Shown here one piece after another: positions 55,299-63,945 of a stretch of 64,000 nucleotides of DNA. The notes under the pieces are model-generated. The model was not told where the DNA came from. It searched no databases and worked only from the letters and a program-made list of their open reading frames with translations. The position numbers and the translations under genes are program-made. How positions within the stretch are numbered: position 1 is the stretch's first letter; every line of letters starts with the position of its first letter. The DNA is taken from contig NZ_JAHVHT010000005.1 of assembly GCF_019802125.1 (NCBI RefSeq), positions 248,001 to 312,000 of the forward strand. The letters run 5' to 3'. This DNA is from Tateyamaria omphalii. GTDB taxonomy: Bacteria; Pseudomonadota; Alphaproteobacteria; Rhodobacterales; Rhodobacteraceae.

Positions 55299-56171
55299 TC
55301 AGGTGAATTTTCTAAAGAGCTTGGTCTTATCAAAAATGTCTTCCAGTTCCTGCATCCTGCTTTTTGTCTTTTCCCAGTTCACAGTTTGGACAGTGGAGAT
55401 CATGCTCTCGGCCAATAGCATTATGGCTGTCGCACTGTCCCAGGCGGAAGGTACAATGATCTGGCTGGAGAGGCTGACATCCGCCATGCGGTGCACGGGT
55501 GATCGCCACTGGTCAGTGAAAAGCACGATCTTGGCGTCACGGGCAAAAGCCAGCTCGGCCAGTTTGAGAGTGTTGTTCTCGTACCGTCGCACGTCGAAAA
55601 TTACGAACACGTCGCCTTTGTTCGCGTTCAGCAGGTAGTGTGGCCATGTGTTGGAGGTCGATTGAACATGCGTCACATGCGGGCGGATGACCTGCAAGTG
55701 CATAAACAGATATTCCGCCAAAGTATGGGTGATGCGCCCACCGACGACAAAGACATGACGTTTCGGATCAGCGACCAGCGAACAGGCAGAATCAAATGCG
55801 ACGGGGTCGATATGCGCCATGGTATTGCGAATATTGTCGATGACCGCGTCGGTGAAACGGTTGAGCACATGTTCCGACGGAGCGGCCCCGGCCCATGTCT
55901 CGTGTTTGGCGATTGGGCCCTTGGCGATGGCCCCCAGTTCTTCGCGCAGGTCCGCCTGAAATTCAGGATACCCTTTGTAACCCAGTTTCTGCACCATGCG
56001 TGCCACTGTCGGCACTGAGACGTTCGCGCCCTTTGCCAATGCCGTCAGCGGCCCGAGACCGGATGCCGGATAGTTTTCGAGGATCGACAGAGCCAGTTGA
56101 CGCTCGGCGCGCGTCAGATCGTCCAGCTTGGCCTGGATGCGATCAGAAATCGTCTGCTTTGCATCGGTCAT
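55299..56171 (-). CDS. RpiR-family regulator (HTH plus SIS domain)
   Basis: From the ATG at 56171 the protein has 290 residues. The N-terminal HTH_6 domain shows LDDLTRAERQLALSILENYPASGLGPLTALAKGANVSVPTVARMVQKLGYKGYPEFQADLREEL. The C-terminal SIS domain shows RHVFVVGGRITHTLAEYLFMHLQVI and KGDVFVIFDVRRYENNTLKLAELAFARDAKIVLFTD. SIS domains commonly bind phosphosugars, though many RpiR proteins sense other metabolites. It is divergent from the amidohydrolase/TRAP operon, with a large inverted repeat between them. A TTG start 24 bases upstream is less likely. Confidence 0.9.
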   Translation of the reverse strand: MTDAKQTISDRIQAKLDDLTRAERQLALSILENYPASGLGPLTALAKGANVSVPTVARMVQKLGYKGYPEFQADLREELGAIAKGPIAKHETWAGAAPSEHVLNRFTDAVIDNIRNTMAHIDPVAFDSACSLVADPKRHVFVVGGRITHTLAEYLFMHLQVIRPHVTHVQSTSNTWPHYLLNANKGDVFVIFDVRRYENNTLKLAELAFARDAKIVLFTDQWRSPVHRMADVSLSSQIIVPSAWDSATAIMLLAESMISTVQTVNWEKTKSRMQELEDIFDKTKLFRKFT

Positions 56172-56187
56172 TTGCGATGTCTCTTCA

Positions 56188-56237
56188 TTGTGCAAAAAAT
56201 TAACAGATGAGCCAGAGCTGTTATGAATTTTTCACAA
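56188..56237. promoter_or_regulatory. Large inverted repeat between rpiR-type gene and amidohydrolase operon
   Basis: TTGTG-C-AAAAAATT-AACAG on the left mirrors CTGTT-ATG-AATTTTT-CACAA on the right, with a one-base offset, around an 11-base centre at about 56207-56217. It fills the divergent promoter region, and RpiR proteins are known to use AT-rich inverted sites. TTGACA at 56243-56248 just beyond it could be a -35 box reading to the right; the -10 is poor. Confidence 0.6.
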
Positions 56238-56289
56238 TTCTGTTGACAGAAATCCCGCTTGGCAAGACCTTTCCCGGGTGGGACCTGCG

Positions 56290-57045
56290 ATGAATCACCT
56301 GAACCAGCCTTGGGATGACACCATTGTCGATGTGCGCGCCAACCGCGCGTCTTCGCAGGTTGTGCTGGTGTGCGAACACGCAAGTCCGTACATTCCTGAG
56401 CGCTTCAAGAACCTTGGCTTGCCGGATGATGCGCTACGCAGCCATGTCGCGTGGGACCCTGGCGCGCTTGCCTTGGCCGAACGCATGGCAGAGCATCTTG
56501 GCGCCGCGCTGCTTGCCGCCAAGACCTCGCGACTGGTGTATGATTGCAATCGACCGCCCGAAGCGCAGGATGCGATGCCTGAACGCAGCGAGGTGGTGGA
56601 TGTGCCGGGAAATTTTGGGTTGAGCTCGCTACAGAAAGCCGAGCGGGTCGAGACCTACTACAAGCCGTTTCGTGCGGCGGTTTCCCATGTCATTTCCCGT
56701 CTTGAAGCACCTGTCCTTGTGACTGTGCACAGTTTTACACCGATCTATCACGATGCGCGTCGTGATGTTGAAATCGGTGTTTTGCATGACCGTGACGCGC
56801 GTTTGGCGGATGCGCTTTTATCATGTGTCGATGGACAATATGTCGTGCGCCGCAATGAACCGTATGGCCCTGACGATGGTGTTACGCACACGTTGAAAGA
56901 ACATGCGCTGCCCGGCGGTCATTTGAATGTCATGCTCGAGGTCCGAAATGATCTCATCGCGGACCAGGCCGGGCAGTCCGGGATGGCAGATCTGTTGTCC
57001 GGCTGGCTCAAGCGCGCCCTTGTGCGTGTGGGAGTGACTGCATGA
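56290..57045 (+). CDS. N-formylglutamate amidohydrolase family enzyme
   Basis: A 251-residue protein of the HutG/N-formylglutamate amidohydrolase family. Metal and substrate motifs are visible: VLVCEHAS near residue 30, HVAWDPGALALAERMAEHLGA, SRLVYDCNRPPEA and VDVPGNFGLS, then LVTVHSFTPIYH. No histidine-degradation genes are nearby, so the classical role is unlikely. It starts an operon with a TRAP transporter, a glutamine-synthetase-like ligase and two dehydrogenases. It may cleave a gamma-glutamyl or other acyl amide at the end of that route; this is inference. Overlap with the DctQ gene is four bases. Confidence 0.85.
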   Translation: MNHLNQPWDDTIVDVRANRASSQVVLVCEHASPYIPERFKNLGLPDDALRSHVAWDPGALALAERMAEHLGAALLAAKTSRLVYDCNRPPEAQDAMPERSEVVDVPGNFGLSSLQKAERVETYYKPFRAAVSHVISRLEAPVLVTVHSFTPIYHDARRDVEIGVLHDRDARLADALLSCVDGQYVVRRNEPYGPDDGVTHTLKEHALPGGHLNVMLEVRNDLIADQAGQSGMADLLSGWLKRALVRVGVTA

Positions 57046-57563
57046 CGGGCTTTGCGTTGCAGTACATCAAGTGGGTCGATGCGATGAACTACCGCATCGG
57101 GCGTATCGTGATGTACGGCATCTTTGTGATGATGGCGATCCTGCTGTGGTCGTCTGTCAGCAAGACCTTTTTTGTGCCATCGCTGTGGACGCTTGAAATG
57201 GCCCAGTTTGCGATGGTGGCGTACTACATGCTCGGCGGGCCCTACTCTATCCAGATGGGATCGAACGTGCGGATGGACCTGCTTTATGGCGAGTGGAGCG
57301 ATCATCGCAAGGCGCAGGTTGATGCGATGACCGTCCTGTTCCTGATCGTCTATCTTGTCTTCCTCCTCTGGGGCGGGTGGGAGAGTTTTCAGTACTCGAT
57401 CAGTTATGGGGGCGAACGTAGCTCGTCCGTTTGGCGCCCGTATCTGTGGCCGATCAAGGCGATCATGCTGGTCGGCATATTCCTGATGCTGTTGCAGGCG
57501 ATTTCCGAGTTCTTCAAGGACATCTTGAGGATCAAGGGGCATGACATGGGGGCCAAGGTCTGA
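57042..57563 (+). CDS. TRAP transporter small membrane subunit (DctQ)
   Basis: A 173-residue protein with four membrane segments (IVMYGIFVMMAILLWSSV, AQFAMVAYYMLGGPYSIQ, VDAMTVLFLIVYLVFLLWGGW, IKAIMLVGIFLMLLQAISEFF). The loop SNVRMDLLYGEWSDHRKAQVD is the DctQ motif. It overlaps the amidohydrolase and DctM genes by four bases or fewer. Unlike the malonate TRAP system, the binding-protein gene comes last here. Confidence 0.88.
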   Translation: MTGFALQYIKWVDAMNYRIGRIVMYGIFVMMAILLWSSVSKTFFVPSLWTLEMAQFAMVAYYMLGGPYSIQMGSNVRMDLLYGEWSDHRKAQVDAMTVLFLIVYLVFLLWGGWESFQYSISYGGERSSSVWRPYLWPIKAIMLVGIFLMLLQAISEFFKDILRIKGHDMGAKV

Positions 57564-58888
57564 TGTCCTACGAGGTCATCGCAATCCTCATGTTCTCGTC
57601 CATGATGCTGATGCTTCTGACGGGCCAGCGCGTGTTCGGGGCCATCGGCTTTGTGGCCGTGGTCGCCGCGTTTTTCCTGTGGGGGGATCGGGGCGGATAC
57701 GACCTTGGGTTTGCGGCGGCGATCAAGCTGATGAAATGGTATCCGCTGCTGACGCTGCCGATGTTCATTTTCATGGGCTACATCCTGTCGGAATCCAAGA
57801 TTGCCGATGATCTCTATCGGATGTTCCACGTCTGGATGGGCGGCCTGTCCGGTGGGTTGGCGGTGGGCACCATTGGGTTGATGGTGCTGATTTCGGCCAT
57901 GAACGGTTTGTCGGTGGCGGGCATGGCCATTGGCGCCACGATTGCGCTGCCAGAGCTTCTGAGGCGGGGTTACGACAAGCGTATGGTGACGGGAGTGATC
58001 CAGGCGGGCTCGTCCCTTGGTATTCTTGTGCCGCCATCGGTCGTGCTGGTGCTATATGCGATGATCGCGCGGCAGCCGGTGGGGCAGTTGTGGCTGGCGG
58101 GCGTGCTGCCGGGACTAATGATGGCCGCGATGTTTATCATCTACATCGTGATCCGCTGCCGCCTGAACCCGGCGCTTGGTCCAGTTCTGCCAGCCGAGGA
58201 TCGCGCAATACCCATGGGCGAGAAGATACGGCTGCTCGGCGCAGGCCTGCTGCCGTTGTTCATCTTCTTTGCGATGATGGTGCCCTTCGTCAACGGCTGG
58301 ACCTCGCTTGTGGAAAGCTCCGCCATCGGGGCCATCGCGGCATTCGTCGCGGCGGTCGCCAAAGGTCGGATGACCCGTGAGGTGTTCGAGACATCGGTGC
58401 GCAAGACACTGGGCATTTCCTGCATGTTCATGTGGATTATCCTTGCTGCGCTCGCCTTCGGCGCCGTGTTTGACGGCCTGGGTGCGGTCAAGGCCATCGA
58501 GAGCCTGTTTACGGAAAAGCTGGGCCTCAGCCCCTGGATGATCCTGATCCTGATGCAGCTCAGCTTTATTGTCATGGGCACGTTTCTGGATGACACCGCG
58601 ATGCTGGTGATCGTCGCGCCGCTCTATGTCCCGCTGGTCGGTGCGCTTGGCTTCGATCTGATCTGGTACGGCGTGCTTTATACGATCACCACGCAGATCG
58701 CCTACATGACGCCGCCCTTCGGCTACAACCTGTTCCTTATGCGCGCCATGGCGCCGCCTGAGATCACGTTGCGCGACATATATTCGTCGATCCTGCCCTT
58801 CGTCTTGGTGATGGCCATCGCGTTGGGCACGATCATGGCCTTTCCTGGAATCGCGCTTTGGTTGCCGGGATATGTGTATGGAAATTAA
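57563..58888 (+). CDS. TRAP transporter large membrane subunit (DctM)
   Basis: A 441-residue protein with about twelve membrane segments. DctM motifs are YPLLTLPMFIFMGYILSESKIADDLYRMFHVWMGGLSGGL, MNGLSVAGMAIGATIALPELLRRGY, GSSLGILVPPSVVLVLYAMIARQPVGQLWLAGVLPG, and the final ITTQIAYMTPPFGYNLFLMRAM. The length is normal. It works with the DctQ partner and the Tat-exported binding protein encoded 63 bases downstream. Confidence 0.93.
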   Translation: MSYEVIAILMFSSMMLMLLTGQRVFGAIGFVAVVAAFFLWGDRGGYDLGFAAAIKLMKWYPLLTLPMFIFMGYILSESKIADDLYRMFHVWMGGLSGGLAVGTIGLMVLISAMNGLSVAGMAIGATIALPELLRRGYDKRMVTGVIQAGSSLGILVPPSVVLVLYAMIARQPVGQLWLAGVLPGLMMAAMFIIYIVIRCRLNPALGPVLPAEDRAIPMGEKIRLLGAGLLPLFIFFAMMVPFVNGWTSLVESSAIGAIAAFVAAVAKGRMTREVFETSVRKTLGISCMFMWIILAALAFGAVFDGLGAVKAIESLFTEKLGLSPWMILILMQLSFIVMGTFLDDTAMLVIVAPLYVPLVGALGFDLIWYGVLYTITTQIAYMTPPFGYNLFLMRAMAPPEITLRDIYSSILPFVLVMAIALGTIMAFPGIALWLPGYVYGN

Positions 58889-58951
58889 CCACAAAAGAGA
58901 TCTCGTATCCCGAGGCATATTGAGAAGAGCACCAACAGAGAGGACATTCCA

Positions 58952-59989
58952 ATGACAACAAGACGCAAGTTCCTATCATCCGCCGGTATTGGCGCCGCCG
59001 CCACGCTCGCGACCCCTTCCATCGTCAAAGCTCAATCGGCGATCAAATGGCGGTTTCAGACCTACGCGGGCAGTGCACTGGGTGAGCATGTGACCAAGCC
59101 GGTCATCGACTATATCAACGCAAATGCCAACGGCGAGCTTGAGGTCGAGCTGTTCTATGCTGACCAGATCGTGCCAACCGGCGAGCTGTTCCAGGCCCTA
59201 CAACGGGGGACAATTGACGGTGTGCATTCGGATGACGACTCCATGGCGTCGCCCACACCGCTGCGTCAGTTCGGCGGGTACTTCCCCTTTGCGACCAAGC
59301 ACATTCTCGACGTGCCGGTGCTGTTCAACCAATATGGGCTGAAAGAAATATGGGAAGAGGAATATGCCAAGGTTGGCGTGAAATGGCTGTCCGCTGCGGG
59401 GCAAGATCCCTGCAATTTCAACACCAAGAAAGAGATTACTTCGGTTGCTGATCTGGATGGTCTCAAACTTTACACCTTCCCGACCGCGGGCCGCTTCCTG
59501 GCCAAGTTCGGCGTGGTGCCAGTGAATATTCCTTACGAGGATGCCGAAGTTGCTGTTCAAACCGGCGAACTGGACGGCATGGCATGGTCCGGCATTACCG
59601 AGGACTACACGGTCGGCTGGGCCGATGTGACCGACTACTTCCTGACCAACAACATCTCGGGCGCATGGATCGGGTCGTGGTTCGTGAACGAGGAGCGGTG
59701 GGCCGATCTGCCCGATCACCTGAAATCGGTCGTGATGGCCGCGACCGAGGCGGGCCACACCTATCGCAACCAGTGGTACTGGGGTGGTGAGGCCGCGCTG
59801 CGTGCCAATGGTGACAAGCTGGCGCTGCGCTCTGTTCCTGCGGGTGAGTGGGCCGAGGTCGAGAATGCCGCCAAGGAGTTCTGGGAAGAGGTCGCGCAGG
59901 AAGGTGAAGTGCATCAGAAGATCGTCAACATCTTCAAGGAGTACAACAGCGTCATCAACCAGGCCGGCGTGCCGTACAACTTCGAATAG
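58952..59989 (+). CDS. TRAP transporter solute-binding protein with Tat signal
   Basis: A 345-residue DctP-type protein whose leader begins MTTRRKFLSSAGIGAAATLATP, a twin-arginine signal, so it is probably folded before export. The mature chain has WRFQTYAGSALGEHVTKPVIDYINANANGELEVELFYADQIVPTGELFQALQRG and the binding Arg region LDGLKLYTFPTAGRFLAKFGVVPVNIPYEDAEVAVQTGELDGM. This is the subgroup that binds hydrophobic or amino-acid-like acids and other ligands. A strong hairpin follows the stop. The ligand is unknown; the enzyme genes suggest an amine or amino alcohol derivative. Confidence 0.9.
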   Translation: MTTRRKFLSSAGIGAAATLATPSIVKAQSAIKWRFQTYAGSALGEHVTKPVIDYINANANGELEVELFYADQIVPTGELFQALQRGTIDGVHSDDDSMASPTPLRQFGGYFPFATKHILDVPVLFNQYGLKEIWEEEYAKVGVKWLSAAGQDPCNFNTKKEITSVADLDGLKLYTFPTAGRFLAKFGVVPVNIPYEDAEVAVQTGELDGMAWSGITEDYTVGWADVTDYFLTNNISGAWIGSWFVNEERWADLPDHLKSVVMAATEAGHTYRNQWYWGGEAALRANGDKLALRSVPAGEWAEVENAAKEFWEEVAQEGEVHQKIVNIFKEYNSVINQAGVPYNFE

Positions 59990-60006
59990 GCGCAAGGGAA
60001 AAAACG

Positions 60007-60037
60007 AAAGGCGCCCCCTTTTTCGTGGGGGCGCTTT
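60007..60037 (+). terminator. Hairpin between dctP and the ligase gene
   Basis: GCGCCCCC (60011-60018) pairs with GGGGGCGC (60027-60034) over an eight-base loop containing five Ts. AAA before and TTT after the stem extend it with one bulge. It begins 21 bases after the dctP stop, and the ligase gene starts 26 bases beyond its stem. It may end part of the transcripts or stabilise the transporter message. Confidence 0.7.
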
Positions 60038-60059
60038 ACTGGACGGAAGGATGGGGCCC

Positions 60060-61424
60060 GTGGCGGCAAATTTGACTTTTGATGCTTTGAAAGATGCCGT
60101 GACGGCGCGTGAGATAGATACTGTTCTTGTCTGTTTTGTCGATATGCAGGGCCGGTTGATGGGCAAGCGGTTCCATGCGGTGAACTTTGTCGAAACCTCG
60201 TTTGAGGAGACGCACTGCTGCAACTACCTGCTGGCGACCGATCTCGAAATGGCGACTCCACCTGGTTATAAAGCGTCGAGTTGGGAAGCGGGATATGGTG
60301 ACTATATCATGGCGCCTGATCTTTCGACCCTGCGTCGTGTGCCGTGGTTGGATGGCACCGCGATGGTGTTGTGCGATGTCTTGGACCATCACACCCATGC
60401 CCCTGTCCCACATTCGCCCCGAGCAATGTTGAAGGCACAGATCGCCCGTCTGAAAGCCCTTGGCTATGATGCGATGATGGCGACGGAGTTGGAGTTTTTC
60501 CTGTTCGAGAAAAGCTTTGACGAGATCCGCAAAGAGGGGTTTCGCGATCTCGCCCCGATCAGCGGCTACAACGAAGATTACCATATCCTCCAGACGACGA
60601 AGGAGGAACATGTGATGCGCCCCATCCGCAATCATCTGTTTGACGCGGGCATTCCCGTTGAGAATACGAAAGGGGAGGCGGAGACCGGGCAGGAAGAGTT
60701 GAACATCCGCTATGCCCCTGCTCTGGACTGTGCGGACCATCACAGCATTGCCAAGAATGCGATCAAGGAGATTGCCGGGCAGCAAGGCCATGCCGCCAGC
60801 TTCCTGCCCAAGTGGCACCATGACCGGATCGGCAGCTCAAGCCACGTGCACCAGTCGCTTTGGCAAGATGGTGAACCCGCGTTCTATGACGCCGACGCCC
60901 CGCTGGGCATGTCGGAGGTGATGCAGCATTACATGGCGGGTCTGATCGCCTATGCGCCGGATTACACATTCTTTCTTGCGCCCTACATCAACAGCTACAA
61001 GCGCTTTGCCAAGGGCACCTTTGCGCCGACCAAGACGGTCTGGTCGGTTGACAACCGGACCGCCGGTTTCCGCCTGTGTGGCGACGGGACCAAGGGCGTT
61101 CGGGTTGAGTGCCGGATCGGTGGGTCCGATCTGAATCCTTATCTGGCGCTGGCAGCGATGCTGGCCGCCGGGATCAAGGGGATCGAGGACAAGATGCCGT
61201 TGGCTCCGGCGACGACGGGTGATGTCTACGACGATGCGCAGGCTGTGGAGATTCCGCGCACCTTGCATGCGGCAACCGAAACACTGCGCGGTTCTATCCT
61301 GCTGCGTACGGCTTTTGGCGACGATGTGGTCGATCACTACGTGCGGGCCGCCGAGTGGGAGCAGGAAGAGTTCGACCGTGTGGTCACCGATTGGGAAGTC
61401 GCGCGCGGCTTTGAAAGGGCCTGA
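60060..61424 (+). CDS. Glutamine-synthetase-like gamma-glutamyl ligase
   Basis: A protein of about 454 residues from the GTG at 60060, which lies eight bases after GGAAGGA; an ATG at 60051 sits too close to that site. The glutamine synthetase fold is clear: ATELEFFLFEKSF near residue 140, GEAETGQEELNIRYAPALDCADHHSIAKNAIKEIA, GSSSHVHQSLW, and FAPTKTVWSVDNRTAGFRLCGDGTKGVRVECRIGGSDLNPYLALAAMLAAGIKG. This pattern belongs to the PuuA/IpuC/GlnT-like group, which links glutamate to amines, not to primary nitrogen assimilation. The following aldehyde and alcohol dehydrogenases support an amine or amino-alcohol substrate. Confidence 0.87.
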   Translation: MAANLTFDALKDAVTAREIDTVLVCFVDMQGRLMGKRFHAVNFVETSFEETHCCNYLLATDLEMATPPGYKASSWEAGYGDYIMAPDLSTLRRVPWLDGTAMVLCDVLDHHTHAPVPHSPRAMLKAQIARLKALGYDAMMATELEFFLFEKSFDEIRKEGFRDLAPISGYNEDYHILQTTKEEHVMRPIRNHLFDAGIPVENTKGEAETGQEELNIRYAPALDCADHHSIAKNAIKEIAGQQGHAASFLPKWHHDRIGSSSHVHQSLWQDGEPAFYDADAPLGMSEVMQHYMAGLIAYAPDYTFFLAPYINSYKRFAKGTFAPTKTVWSVDNRTAGFRLCGDGTKGVRVECRIGGSDLNPYLALAAMLAAGIKGIEDKMPLAPATTGDVYDDAQAVEIPRTLHAATETLRGSILLRTAFGDDVVDHYVRAAEWEQEEFDRVVTDWEVARGFERA

Positions 61425-61426
61425 TT

Positions 61427-62794
61427 ATGATCCGCTGTATCTCTCCCATTGACGGGTCTGTCGTTGCCGAACGTCCCACGTTGTCAGCGGCCCAAGCACA
61501 TGCTGCCGTCGCGCGAGCGCGGGCTGCGCAGGCCGACTGGGCTGCGCGCCCGTTGGAAGACCGCATCGCGCTGGTGCAGGCCGGTGTTGCGAATATCGGT
61601 ACGATGAATGAAGATATCGTGCCTGCATTGGCGCGCCAGATGGGGCGCCCCATCCGCTATGGCGGCGAGTTCGGCGGTTTTAGCGAACGCGCGACGTATA
61701 TGGCCGGTATCGCGCCCGAGGCGCTTGCCGATATCGAGATCGAAGACAGCCCGGCCTTTCGACGGGTGATCAAGCGCGTGCCTCATGGCCTTGTTCTGGT
61801 CGTGGCACCGTGGAACTACCCCTACATGACGGCTATCAATACGGTGGCGCCCGCCCTGATCGCAGGGAATGCGGTGATGCTGAAACATGCGAGCCAGACA
61901 CCGCTGGTGGGTGAGCATCTGGCGACGGCCTTTCATGCCGCGGGGGTGCCCGCGGACGTCTTCCAGAACGTCTTTCTGGATCACCAGACGACATCGGATC
62001 TGATCGCGGCCAAATCCTTTGGTTTTGTCAATTTCACGGGATCGGTGGTTGGCGGGCAGGCCATTGAACGCGCGGCGGCTGGCACGTTTACCGGCATCGG
62101 GTTGGAACTGGGCGGGAAGGACCCCGGCTATGTCTGCGACGATGCCGACATTGATGCGGCGGCAGAGACTTTGATTGACGGGGCGATGTTCAACTCGGGG
62201 CAGTGCTGTTGCGGGATCGAGCGGATTTACGTGGCAGAGCAGCATTTCGACATCTTCGTCGCGAAAGCGGTCGAGATTGTCAGCGCCTACAAGCTCGGAA
62301 ATCCGCTGGACGCAGAAACGACATTGGGTCCCATGGCACACAAGCGGTTTGCAGACACGGTGCGTGCGCAAACGGCCGAAGCAATTGAACAGGGCGCGAC
62401 CGCGCATATCCCAGCATTTGCGGAGGACGATGGAGGTGCGTACCTGTCACCACAAATCCTGACCAACGTGACCCACGATATGCGCGTGATGCGCGAAGAG
62501 AGCTTTGGTCCGGTTGTGGGTATCATGCCTGTGAGGGACGACGCGCACGCGATTGAACTTGTGAATGACAGCGACTTTGGCCTGACCGCGTCCGTCTGGA
62601 CGCGGGATGTGCAGCGTGCTGAAGCCATCGCTGATCAGATCGAAACGGGCACCGTTTTCATGAACCGCGCCGACTACCTTGATCCAGCGCTGTGCTGGAC
62701 CGGGTGCAAAGACACGGGACGCGGGGGCGGGCTGTCGCTTATCGGCTATCACAACCTGACGCGTCCGAAATCCTATCACTTGAAGAAGGCCTGA
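61427..62794 (+). CDS. Aldehyde dehydrogenase
   Basis: A 455-residue NAD(P)-dependent dehydrogenase. The catalytic Glu227 is in GIGLELGGKDP and the catalytic Cys is most likely Cys261 in FNSGQCCCGIERIYV, where three Cys stand in a row. VLVVAPWNYPYMTAINTVAPALIAGNAVMLKHAS is the cofactor and oxyanion region, with His replacing the usual Pro in the KP-S motif. EESFGPVVGIMPV closes the active site. It begins two bases after the ligase stop and is followed by the alcohol dehydrogenase. The two would oxidise an alcohol to a carboxylate. Confidence 0.92.
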   Translation: MIRCISPIDGSVVAERPTLSAAQAHAAVARARAAQADWAARPLEDRIALVQAGVANIGTMNEDIVPALARQMGRPIRYGGEFGGFSERATYMAGIAPEALADIEIEDSPAFRRVIKRVPHGLVLVVAPWNYPYMTAINTVAPALIAGNAVMLKHASQTPLVGEHLATAFHAAGVPADVFQNVFLDHQTTSDLIAAKSFGFVNFTGSVVGGQAIERAAAGTFTGIGLELGGKDPGYVCDDADIDAAAETLIDGAMFNSGQCCCGIERIYVAEQHFDIFVAKAVEIVSAYKLGNPLDAETTLGPMAHKRFADTVRAQTAEAIEQGATAHIPAFAEDDGGAYLSPQILTNVTHDMRVMREESFGPVVGIMPVRDDAHAIELVNDSDFGLTASVWTRDVQRAEAIADQIETGTVFMNRADYLDPALCWTGCKDTGRGGGLSLIGYHNLTRPKSYHLKKA

Positions 62795-62799
62795 GTGCT

Positions 62800-63945
62800 A
62801 TGCCGCTGACCGCAAATTGGTCCTATCCCACTGCAATCCGTTTTGGCGCTGGACGCATCGCCGAAATTGCCGATGCCTGTGCGGCTGCGGGCATTTCCAA
62901 GCCGCTACTGATCACCGATCGTGGCCTGGCTGACATGGAAATCACGACCAAAACGCTTGATCTGCTGGAGGCGGCGGGACTGGGGCGCGCGATCTTTGCG
63001 GATGTTGATCCGAACCCCAATGAAAAGAACGCTGACGCAGGCGTGCGCGCCTTCAAAGAGGGTGGACATGATGGTGTAGTTGCTTTCGGGGGCGGATCAG
63101 GCCTGGATCTCGGCAAGCTTGTCGCGTTTCTTGCGGGCCAGACCCGTCCGCTGTGGGACTTTGAGGATATCGGAGACTGGTGGACCCGCGCAGATGCGGA
63201 TGCCATTGCGCCCATTGTTGCGGTGCCCACCACTGCGGGCACCGGATCGGAAGTAGGGCGGGCGAGCGTCATTACCAATTCGGAGACAGAAGAAAAGAAG
63301 ATCATCTTTCACCCGAAGTTCCTGCCGACCGTGGTGATTTGTGACCCCGAGTTGACCGTCGGGATGCCCAAGCTCATCACGGCCGGCACCGGCCTTGATG
63401 CCTTTGCCCACTGCGTCGAGGCGTTTTCATCCCCGCACTACCATCCAATGTCGCAGGGCATGGCGCTGGAAGGAATGCGGTTGGTCAAGGACTACCTCCC
63501 GCGCGCCTATGATGATGGCGAAGACCTTGAGGCGCGCGCGCAGATGATGTCAGCGGCGGCGATGGGCGCGACCGCCTTTCAAAAAGGGCTGGGTGCAATC
63601 CACGCTCTGTCGCATCCCATCGGCGCGATCTACCACACGCATCACGGCACCACGAACGCGGTTTGTATGCCGGCCGTTTTGCAGTTCAACAGGTCAGCGA
63701 TTGCAGACCGCTTTGACATGGCGACCGGGTATCTTGGCATTTCAGGCGGCTTTGACGGGTTCTGTGCATATGTTGATGATCTGAACCAGAGTATGGGCAT
63801 TCCCAAAACGCTGACTGATCTTGGCATCGAAAAGCTGGATGTAGATCGGGTCGTTGAAGGCGCTTTGATCGATCCAAGCACTGGGGGAAACCCGATCGAG
63901 ATGACGCGCAAGAACACACGGGAGCTTCTTTTGAATATTGTGTAG
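62800..63945 (+). CDS. Iron-containing alcohol dehydrogenase
   Basis: A 381-residue group III alcohol dehydrogenase. The start at 62800 is chosen because the frame upstream to 62692 overlaps the aldehyde dehydrogenase. The nucleotide motif is GVVAFGGGSGLDLGK, followed by VPTTAGTGSEV. The metal ligands are Asp200 and His204 (GLDAFAHCVEAF), His268 and His282 in the IHALSHPIGAIYHTHHG block, matching the FucO spacing of 14. It would oxidise an alcohol group to an aldehyde for the neighbouring dehydrogenase. It is the last gene fully in the window. Confidence 0.93.
   Translation: MPLTANWSYPTAIRFGAGRIAEIADACAAAGISKPLLITDRGLADMEITTKTLDLLEAAGLGRAIFADVDPNPNEKNADAGVRAFKEGGHDGVVAFGGGSGLDLGKLVAFLAGQTRPLWDFEDIGDWWTRADADAIAPIVAVPTTAGTGSEVGRASVITNSETEEKKIIFHPKFLPTVVICDPELTVGMPKLITAGTGLDAFAHCVEAFSSPHYHPMSQGMALEGMRLVKDYLPRAYDDGEDLEARAQMMSAAAMGATAFQKGLGAIHALSHPIGAIYHTHHGTTNAVCMPAVLQFNRSAIADRFDMATGYLGISGGFDGFCAYVDDLNQSMGIPKTLTDLGIEKLDVDRVVEGALIDPSTGGNPIEMTRKNTRELLLNIV

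Follow-up and report, generated by a model that had tools for sequence, protein, structure and literature searches.

The operon of Tateyamaria omphalii that joins a TRAP importer to a glutamine synthetase relative and an N-formylglutamate amidohydrolase-family hydrolase is very probably an eto-type ethanolamine operon

Why would a gene of the N-formylglutamate amidohydrolase (FGase) family share an operon with a TRAP importer, a glutamine synthetase (GS) relative, an aldehyde dehydrogenase (ALDH) and an iron alcohol dehydrogenase (Fe-ADH)? This combination occurs in a stretch of 64,000 nucleotides from Tateyamaria omphalii (contig NZ_JAHVHT010000005.1, positions 248,001 to 312,000; hereafter the window), where positions 55299-63945 hold eight intact genes, a divergent one for an RpiR-type regulator and seven on the plus strand. 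An earlier note on this DNA had described a regulated operon with these five functions, and that description stands: the genes lie where it had placed them, and the regulator gene is found just before them. The anatomy of the locus and the families of its products are thereby established. The note had placed the HutG-family enzyme at the end of the pathway; this enzyme would indeed catalyse the last step of the proposed route, but its gene is the opening one of the operon. The chemistry that it had suggested, in which an imported amino alcohol is gamma-glutamylated, oxidised by the alcohol and then the aldehyde dehydrogenase, and glutamate is freed by the FGase-family enzyme, is still the best-supported reading, and the amino alcohol would likely be ethanolamine. 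The operon of the window is very probably an eto-type ethanolamine operon.

Westermann et al. (2023, PMC10132767) describe an operon of Phaeobacter sp. MED193, MED193_10021-10056, that consists of RpiR, GGAH, EtoV, EtoW, EtoX, ETAGA, GAADDH and GETADH. Both the eight functions and their order agree with the window, the gene at the FGase position being named gamma-glutamylglycine amidohydrolase (GGAH), an enzyme name already used in the literature; a comparison by gene order and names revealed no difference between the two operons. The authors report that five of the proteins (GGAH, EtoX, ETAGA, GAADDH and GETADH) are up on phosphorylethanolamine and that EtoX binds ethanolamine with a Kd of 7.9 uM. 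For the genome studied here, substrate and reactions are carried over from this published operon. Ethanolamine would be taken up by the TRAP importer, and the GS relative would join it, with ATP, to the gamma-carboxyl group of glutamate to give gamma-glutamylethanolamide. The Fe-ADH would then oxidise the hydroxyl of this compound to the aldehyde, the ALDH would turn the aldehyde into gamma-glutamylglycine, and the FGase-family hydrolase would release glycine and glutamate, with the whole unit under the control of the RpiR protein.

The combination had been taken for undescribed, a claim overturned by the Phaeobacter operon and by a route proposed for Streptomyces coelicolor. As put forward by Krysenko et al. 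(2019, PMC6529630), the latter route is built on GlnA4 and its last enzyme is SCO1615, of the formylglutamate amidohydrolase family. It resembles the window route in having a gamma-glutamylethanolamide synthetase, two proposed dehydrogenases and a proposed FGase-family gamma-glutamylglycine amidohydrolase, and differs from it in a short-chain dehydrogenase (named in a figure legend) instead of the iron enzyme, as well as in transporter and regulator. The reference list of that paper includes a conference abstract of 2015 about a new pathway for ethanolamine, and PMC10132767 cites Vetting et al. (2015) for the ethanolamine route of Chromohalobacter salexigens and Agrobacterium tumefaciens. A literature search that combined the family names of hydrolase, importer and ligase returned no paper; the operon is printed under other names. 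It is thus already known, and no new reading of it survives.

The binding protein of the importer, DctP, bears on the identity of the substrate. Its best PDB match is 4uab (E 2.6e-145), with the runner-up at 3.7e-17. According to a 2025 paper (PMC12410723), 4UAB is Csal_0678 of C. salexigens with bound ethanolamine, and an acidic residue holds the ligand. Csal_0678 is described in an article of 2015 (PMC4646407) as devoid of the arginine with which TRAP binding proteins select carboxylates. The window DctP is of the same kind. Alignment places Tyr174 at the position of the selectivity arginine, against Arg in all 13 further members of PF03480 that the genome encodes (the comparison of its TRAP binding proteins covers this family), and in the DctPs of 19 relatives the position is taken by Phe in 16 and by Tyr in 3. 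All 19 also share a glutamate, Glu217, as part of an ITE or FTE motif. The operon therefore encodes an ethanolamine-type binding protein without the carboxylate arginine, as expected of an eto operon. The closeness to 4uab also argues against the same route serving mainly another amino alcohol (alaninol, 1-amino-2-propanol, 3-aminopropanol or N-methylethanolamine) and ending in an amino acid other than glycine. The chemistry would be identical, and the Salipiger cluster adjoins betaine-transport and demethylation-type genes; even so, several of the genes found next to the cluster in relatives suit a product such as glycine or glyoxylate, and we consider this alternative quite improbable.

Those neighbours are as follows. 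In Salipiger abyssi, glyA and a gene for L-serine ammonia-lyase come after those for the four enzymes (hydrolase, GS relative, ALDH and Fe-ADH). On three plasmids, two from Aminobacter and one from P. pantotrophus (L036, L040, L041), bhc genes come next, and bhcBCD adjoin one of the 80 best genome loci, that of Roseovarius azorensis (L151). The bhc genes belong to the beta-hydroxyaspartate cycle, which consumes glyoxylate. All these neighbours fit glycine as the product, at a minority of loci; within the window itself no neighbour of the glyA or bhc type was identified. As a side observation, the steps from ethanolamine through glycine to glyoxylate could move as one module (L036, L040, L041, L151); a literature search on ethanolamine and the beta-hydroxyaspartate cycle gave three papers.

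GS relatives also protect amines by gamma-glutamylation in the Ipu (isopropylamine or alaninol) and Puu (putrescine) pathways, which differ from the window route in substrates and hydrolases. The GS-like protein of the window stays below the cut-offs for glutamine synthetases of type I (GlnA model, 241.8 against 429.15 bits) and type III (228.7 against 469.6). Its best PDB match, at 751.6 bits, is 5dm3, the Chromohalobacter enzyme, and it is probably the ethanolamine gamma-glutamylase. An identity as the gamma-glutamylputrescine synthetase PuuA was rejected (202.7 against a cut-off of 650, NF045547). The FGase scores 22.4 bits with the HutG model TIGR02017, whose cut-off is 278.75, and its sole PDB match at E <= 0.1 is 2odf, Atu2144 of A. 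tumefaciens C58, a bacterium with an ethanolamine route; it is probably GGAH. Two further PF05013 proteins are present in the genome, one of which, on C2, reaches 118.2 bits with the HutG model. Of the hut genes, whose absence was pointed out in the earlier note, hutH and hutU (TIGR01225, TIGR01228) gave no hit anywhere in the genome at E <= 0.001, and each matches in 5 of 14 control genomes. The Fe-ADH is probably gamma-glutamylethanolamide dehydrogenase, and the ALDH probably converts gamma-glutamyl-aminoacetaldehyde to gamma-glutamylglycine. For the binding protein, the ligase and the hydrolase, close solved structures exist among the PDB matches. The Eut route through ethanolamine ammonia-lyase was rejected for this genome, in which EutB (PF06751) has no match; in the controls, one genome of 14 (E. 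coli) matched.

Co-conservation of the genes was established in two sets of genomes. Among 61 genomes (own genome included), a close FGase, defined as at least 46% identical to the window protein, occurs at 17 loci, our own and 16 others. Fifteen of the 16 relatives have the complete set of eight in unchanged order, so the grouping of the genes is not due to chance; the exception (genome G037, locus L055) has the first five genes only. RpiR, an ethanolamine-type importer and FGase are retained at this locus and at two more (L119, L120). At 13 loci with more distant FGases (L021-L033), none of RpiR, DctQ and DctM was found within the roughly 3-4 kb inspected. A wider scan of the genome collection gave at least 595 stretches, at least 589 of them confirmed, and the best 80 loci were analysed. 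All four enzymes lie near FGase at 61 of the 80, together with a TRAP importer (36 loci), an amino-acid-type permease (17) or neither in recognisable form (8). Of the remaining 19, ten break off at most 160 bases before their contig ends, L119 lies 1.6 kb from such an end, and eight are intact. Some of the missing genes were found outside the stretches fetched: GS and Fe-ADH side by side in the genome of L089, and an Fe-ADH 56-74% identical to that of the window in the genomes of L090, L108, L122 and L147. ALDH is missing from the locus stretches of L091 and L092.

Plasmids gave a similar picture. Of 142 plasmid records with an FGase match, 40 were listed and 13 were opened (45 Klebsiella records are among those unopened). 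FGase, GS, ALDH and Fe-ADH follow each other in that order in nine of the 13 opened regions (L034-L036, L038-L042, L044). Three of the nine have a TRAP transporter and two have a permease; in the remaining four, no transporter gene separates FGase from GS. In two regions (L037, L045) the GS is a distant one (27% and 26%), and two (L043, L177) carry EutBC instead.

Several observations weigh against an eto operon acting as a strict unit on ethanolamine. A close FGase is found in only 7 of 19 genomes of the same genus. The genomes of G037, L119 and L120 have importer and FGase and no eto-type GS (best-scoring match 32%, none above 35% identical). Nine of the 80 best loci, L119 included, are uncut by a contig end and have at least one enzyme missing nearby, and the co-conservation proposed earlier as a check thus holds for 15 of 16 close relatives and 61 of 80 loci and fails at these nine. 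The published platform glutamate of the binding protein is Glu220, the kept one in our alignment is residue 217, and we assumed that they are the same. FGase also stands beside EutB on 13 Agrobacterium or Rhizobium rhizogenes plasmid records, so the hydrolase is not tied to the eto pathway alone. Finally, the best models are 4-hydroxybutyrate dehydrogenase for the Fe-ADH (359.7, below the cut-off of 500) and succinic semialdehyde dehydrogenase for the ALDH (314.6, below 521). These last matches would suit an operon for 4-hydroxybutyrate or another organic acid, imported by the TRAP system and oxidised by the two dehydrogenases, with GS and FGase as unrelated passengers. Both scores fall short, however, the binding protein is without the carboxylate arginine, and the co-conservation of the operon extends to GS and FGase, which leaves this explanation a nearly negligible chance. 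Equally slight is the prospect that FGase is a true HutG and the GS relative a true glutamine synthetase, neighbours by accident: family-level Pfam matches would allow it, yet the HutG and GlnA scores, the unmatched hutH and hutU and the strong co-conservation all speak against it.

Two plasmids, pAoF64/95 and pRi1724, have eutB and eutC immediately downstream of the FGase gene (L043:8956-12127; L177:6971-10167), and no GS is annotated in the stretches opened. A search with EutB gave 123 records, of which 14 were judged. By coordinates, FGase and EutB are paired in all 13 records with the closest EutB (at least 94% identity), with 190-255 bases between the matches; the fourteenth record (Pararhizobium sp. 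A13) falls outside the 40 listed FGase matches. The FGases of the 13 are 46-49% identical to the window protein, and the 35 records that match an eto-type GS at E 1e-100 include none of these plasmids. The 13 records represent a few plasmid types and are not independent cases. In one R. rhizogenes genome (L157) a complete eto cluster lies on the chromosome, and hosts of these plasmids may have a chromosomal ligase. We think it rather unlikely that the hydrolase family has a second ethanolamine role outside the eto pathway; in such a role, the plasmid FGase may act on an imported amide (gamma-glutamylethanolamide or an opine-like compound) and thereby supply the ammonia-lyase with ethanolamine. 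A literature search found no paper joining pRi1724 and ethanolamine.

The features of the window operon are collected in the table below. Adjacent genes overlap or are 2-5 bases apart, except for 63 and 61 bases flanking DctP, and for FGase the ATG start is likelier than the GTG. Upstream of FGase, TTGACA and the block TGGCAAGAC are invariant in all seven aligned loci. Three of the six relatives (L090, L091, L092) have a full TGTGA...TCACA inverted repeat, which is imperfect in the window. These elements may act as operator or promoter, and a nitrogen-type (sigma-54) promoter is conceivable in the same region.

Features of the eto-type operon in the window (positions in window coordinates)
Feature	Position	Strand	Basis
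RpiR/MurR-type regulator (HTH_6 + SIS), divergent	55299-56171	-	Pfam PF01418, PF01380
RpiR/FGase intergenic region	56172-56289	.	alignment of 7 loci (window + 6 relatives)
FGase-family hydrolase	56278 (GTG) or 56290 (ATG) to 57045	+	PF05013, 140.5 bits
DctQ, TRAP small permease (EtoV-like)	57042-57563	+	PF04290
DctM, TRAP large permease (EtoW-like)	57563-58888	+	PF06808
DctP, TRAP binding protein, ethanolamine type (EtoX-like)	58952-59989	+	PF03480; 4uab match
GS-like, glutamine synthetase relative	60051-61424	+	PF00120
ALDH, aldehyde dehydrogenase	61427-62794	+	PF00171; operon position of published GAADDH
Fe-ADH, iron alcohol dehydrogenase	62800-63945	+	PF00465, PF25137; operon position of published GETADH

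Just past the window, after the operon, lies a gene for an ABC-type binding protein of the SBP_bac_8 family (L064:3074-4135). Such a protein also follows the operon in two relatives (L091:16511-17569, and L044:16932-17993, where it is annotated PotD), and those of L064 and L091 are 93% identical. A different, dissimilar ABC binding protein, a relative of the one in the S. meliloti region L038, is found upstream in 27 of 61 core loci.

Ethanolamine is a breakdown product of membrane lipids, and T. omphalii would be one more genome with the published route, by which the degradation of phospholipids is coupled to the supply of nitrogen and carbon. The practical point concerns annotation: where clusters of this kind contain an 'N-formylglutamate amidohydrolase' and a 'glutamine synthetase', both genes should carry names from ethanolamine catabolism.

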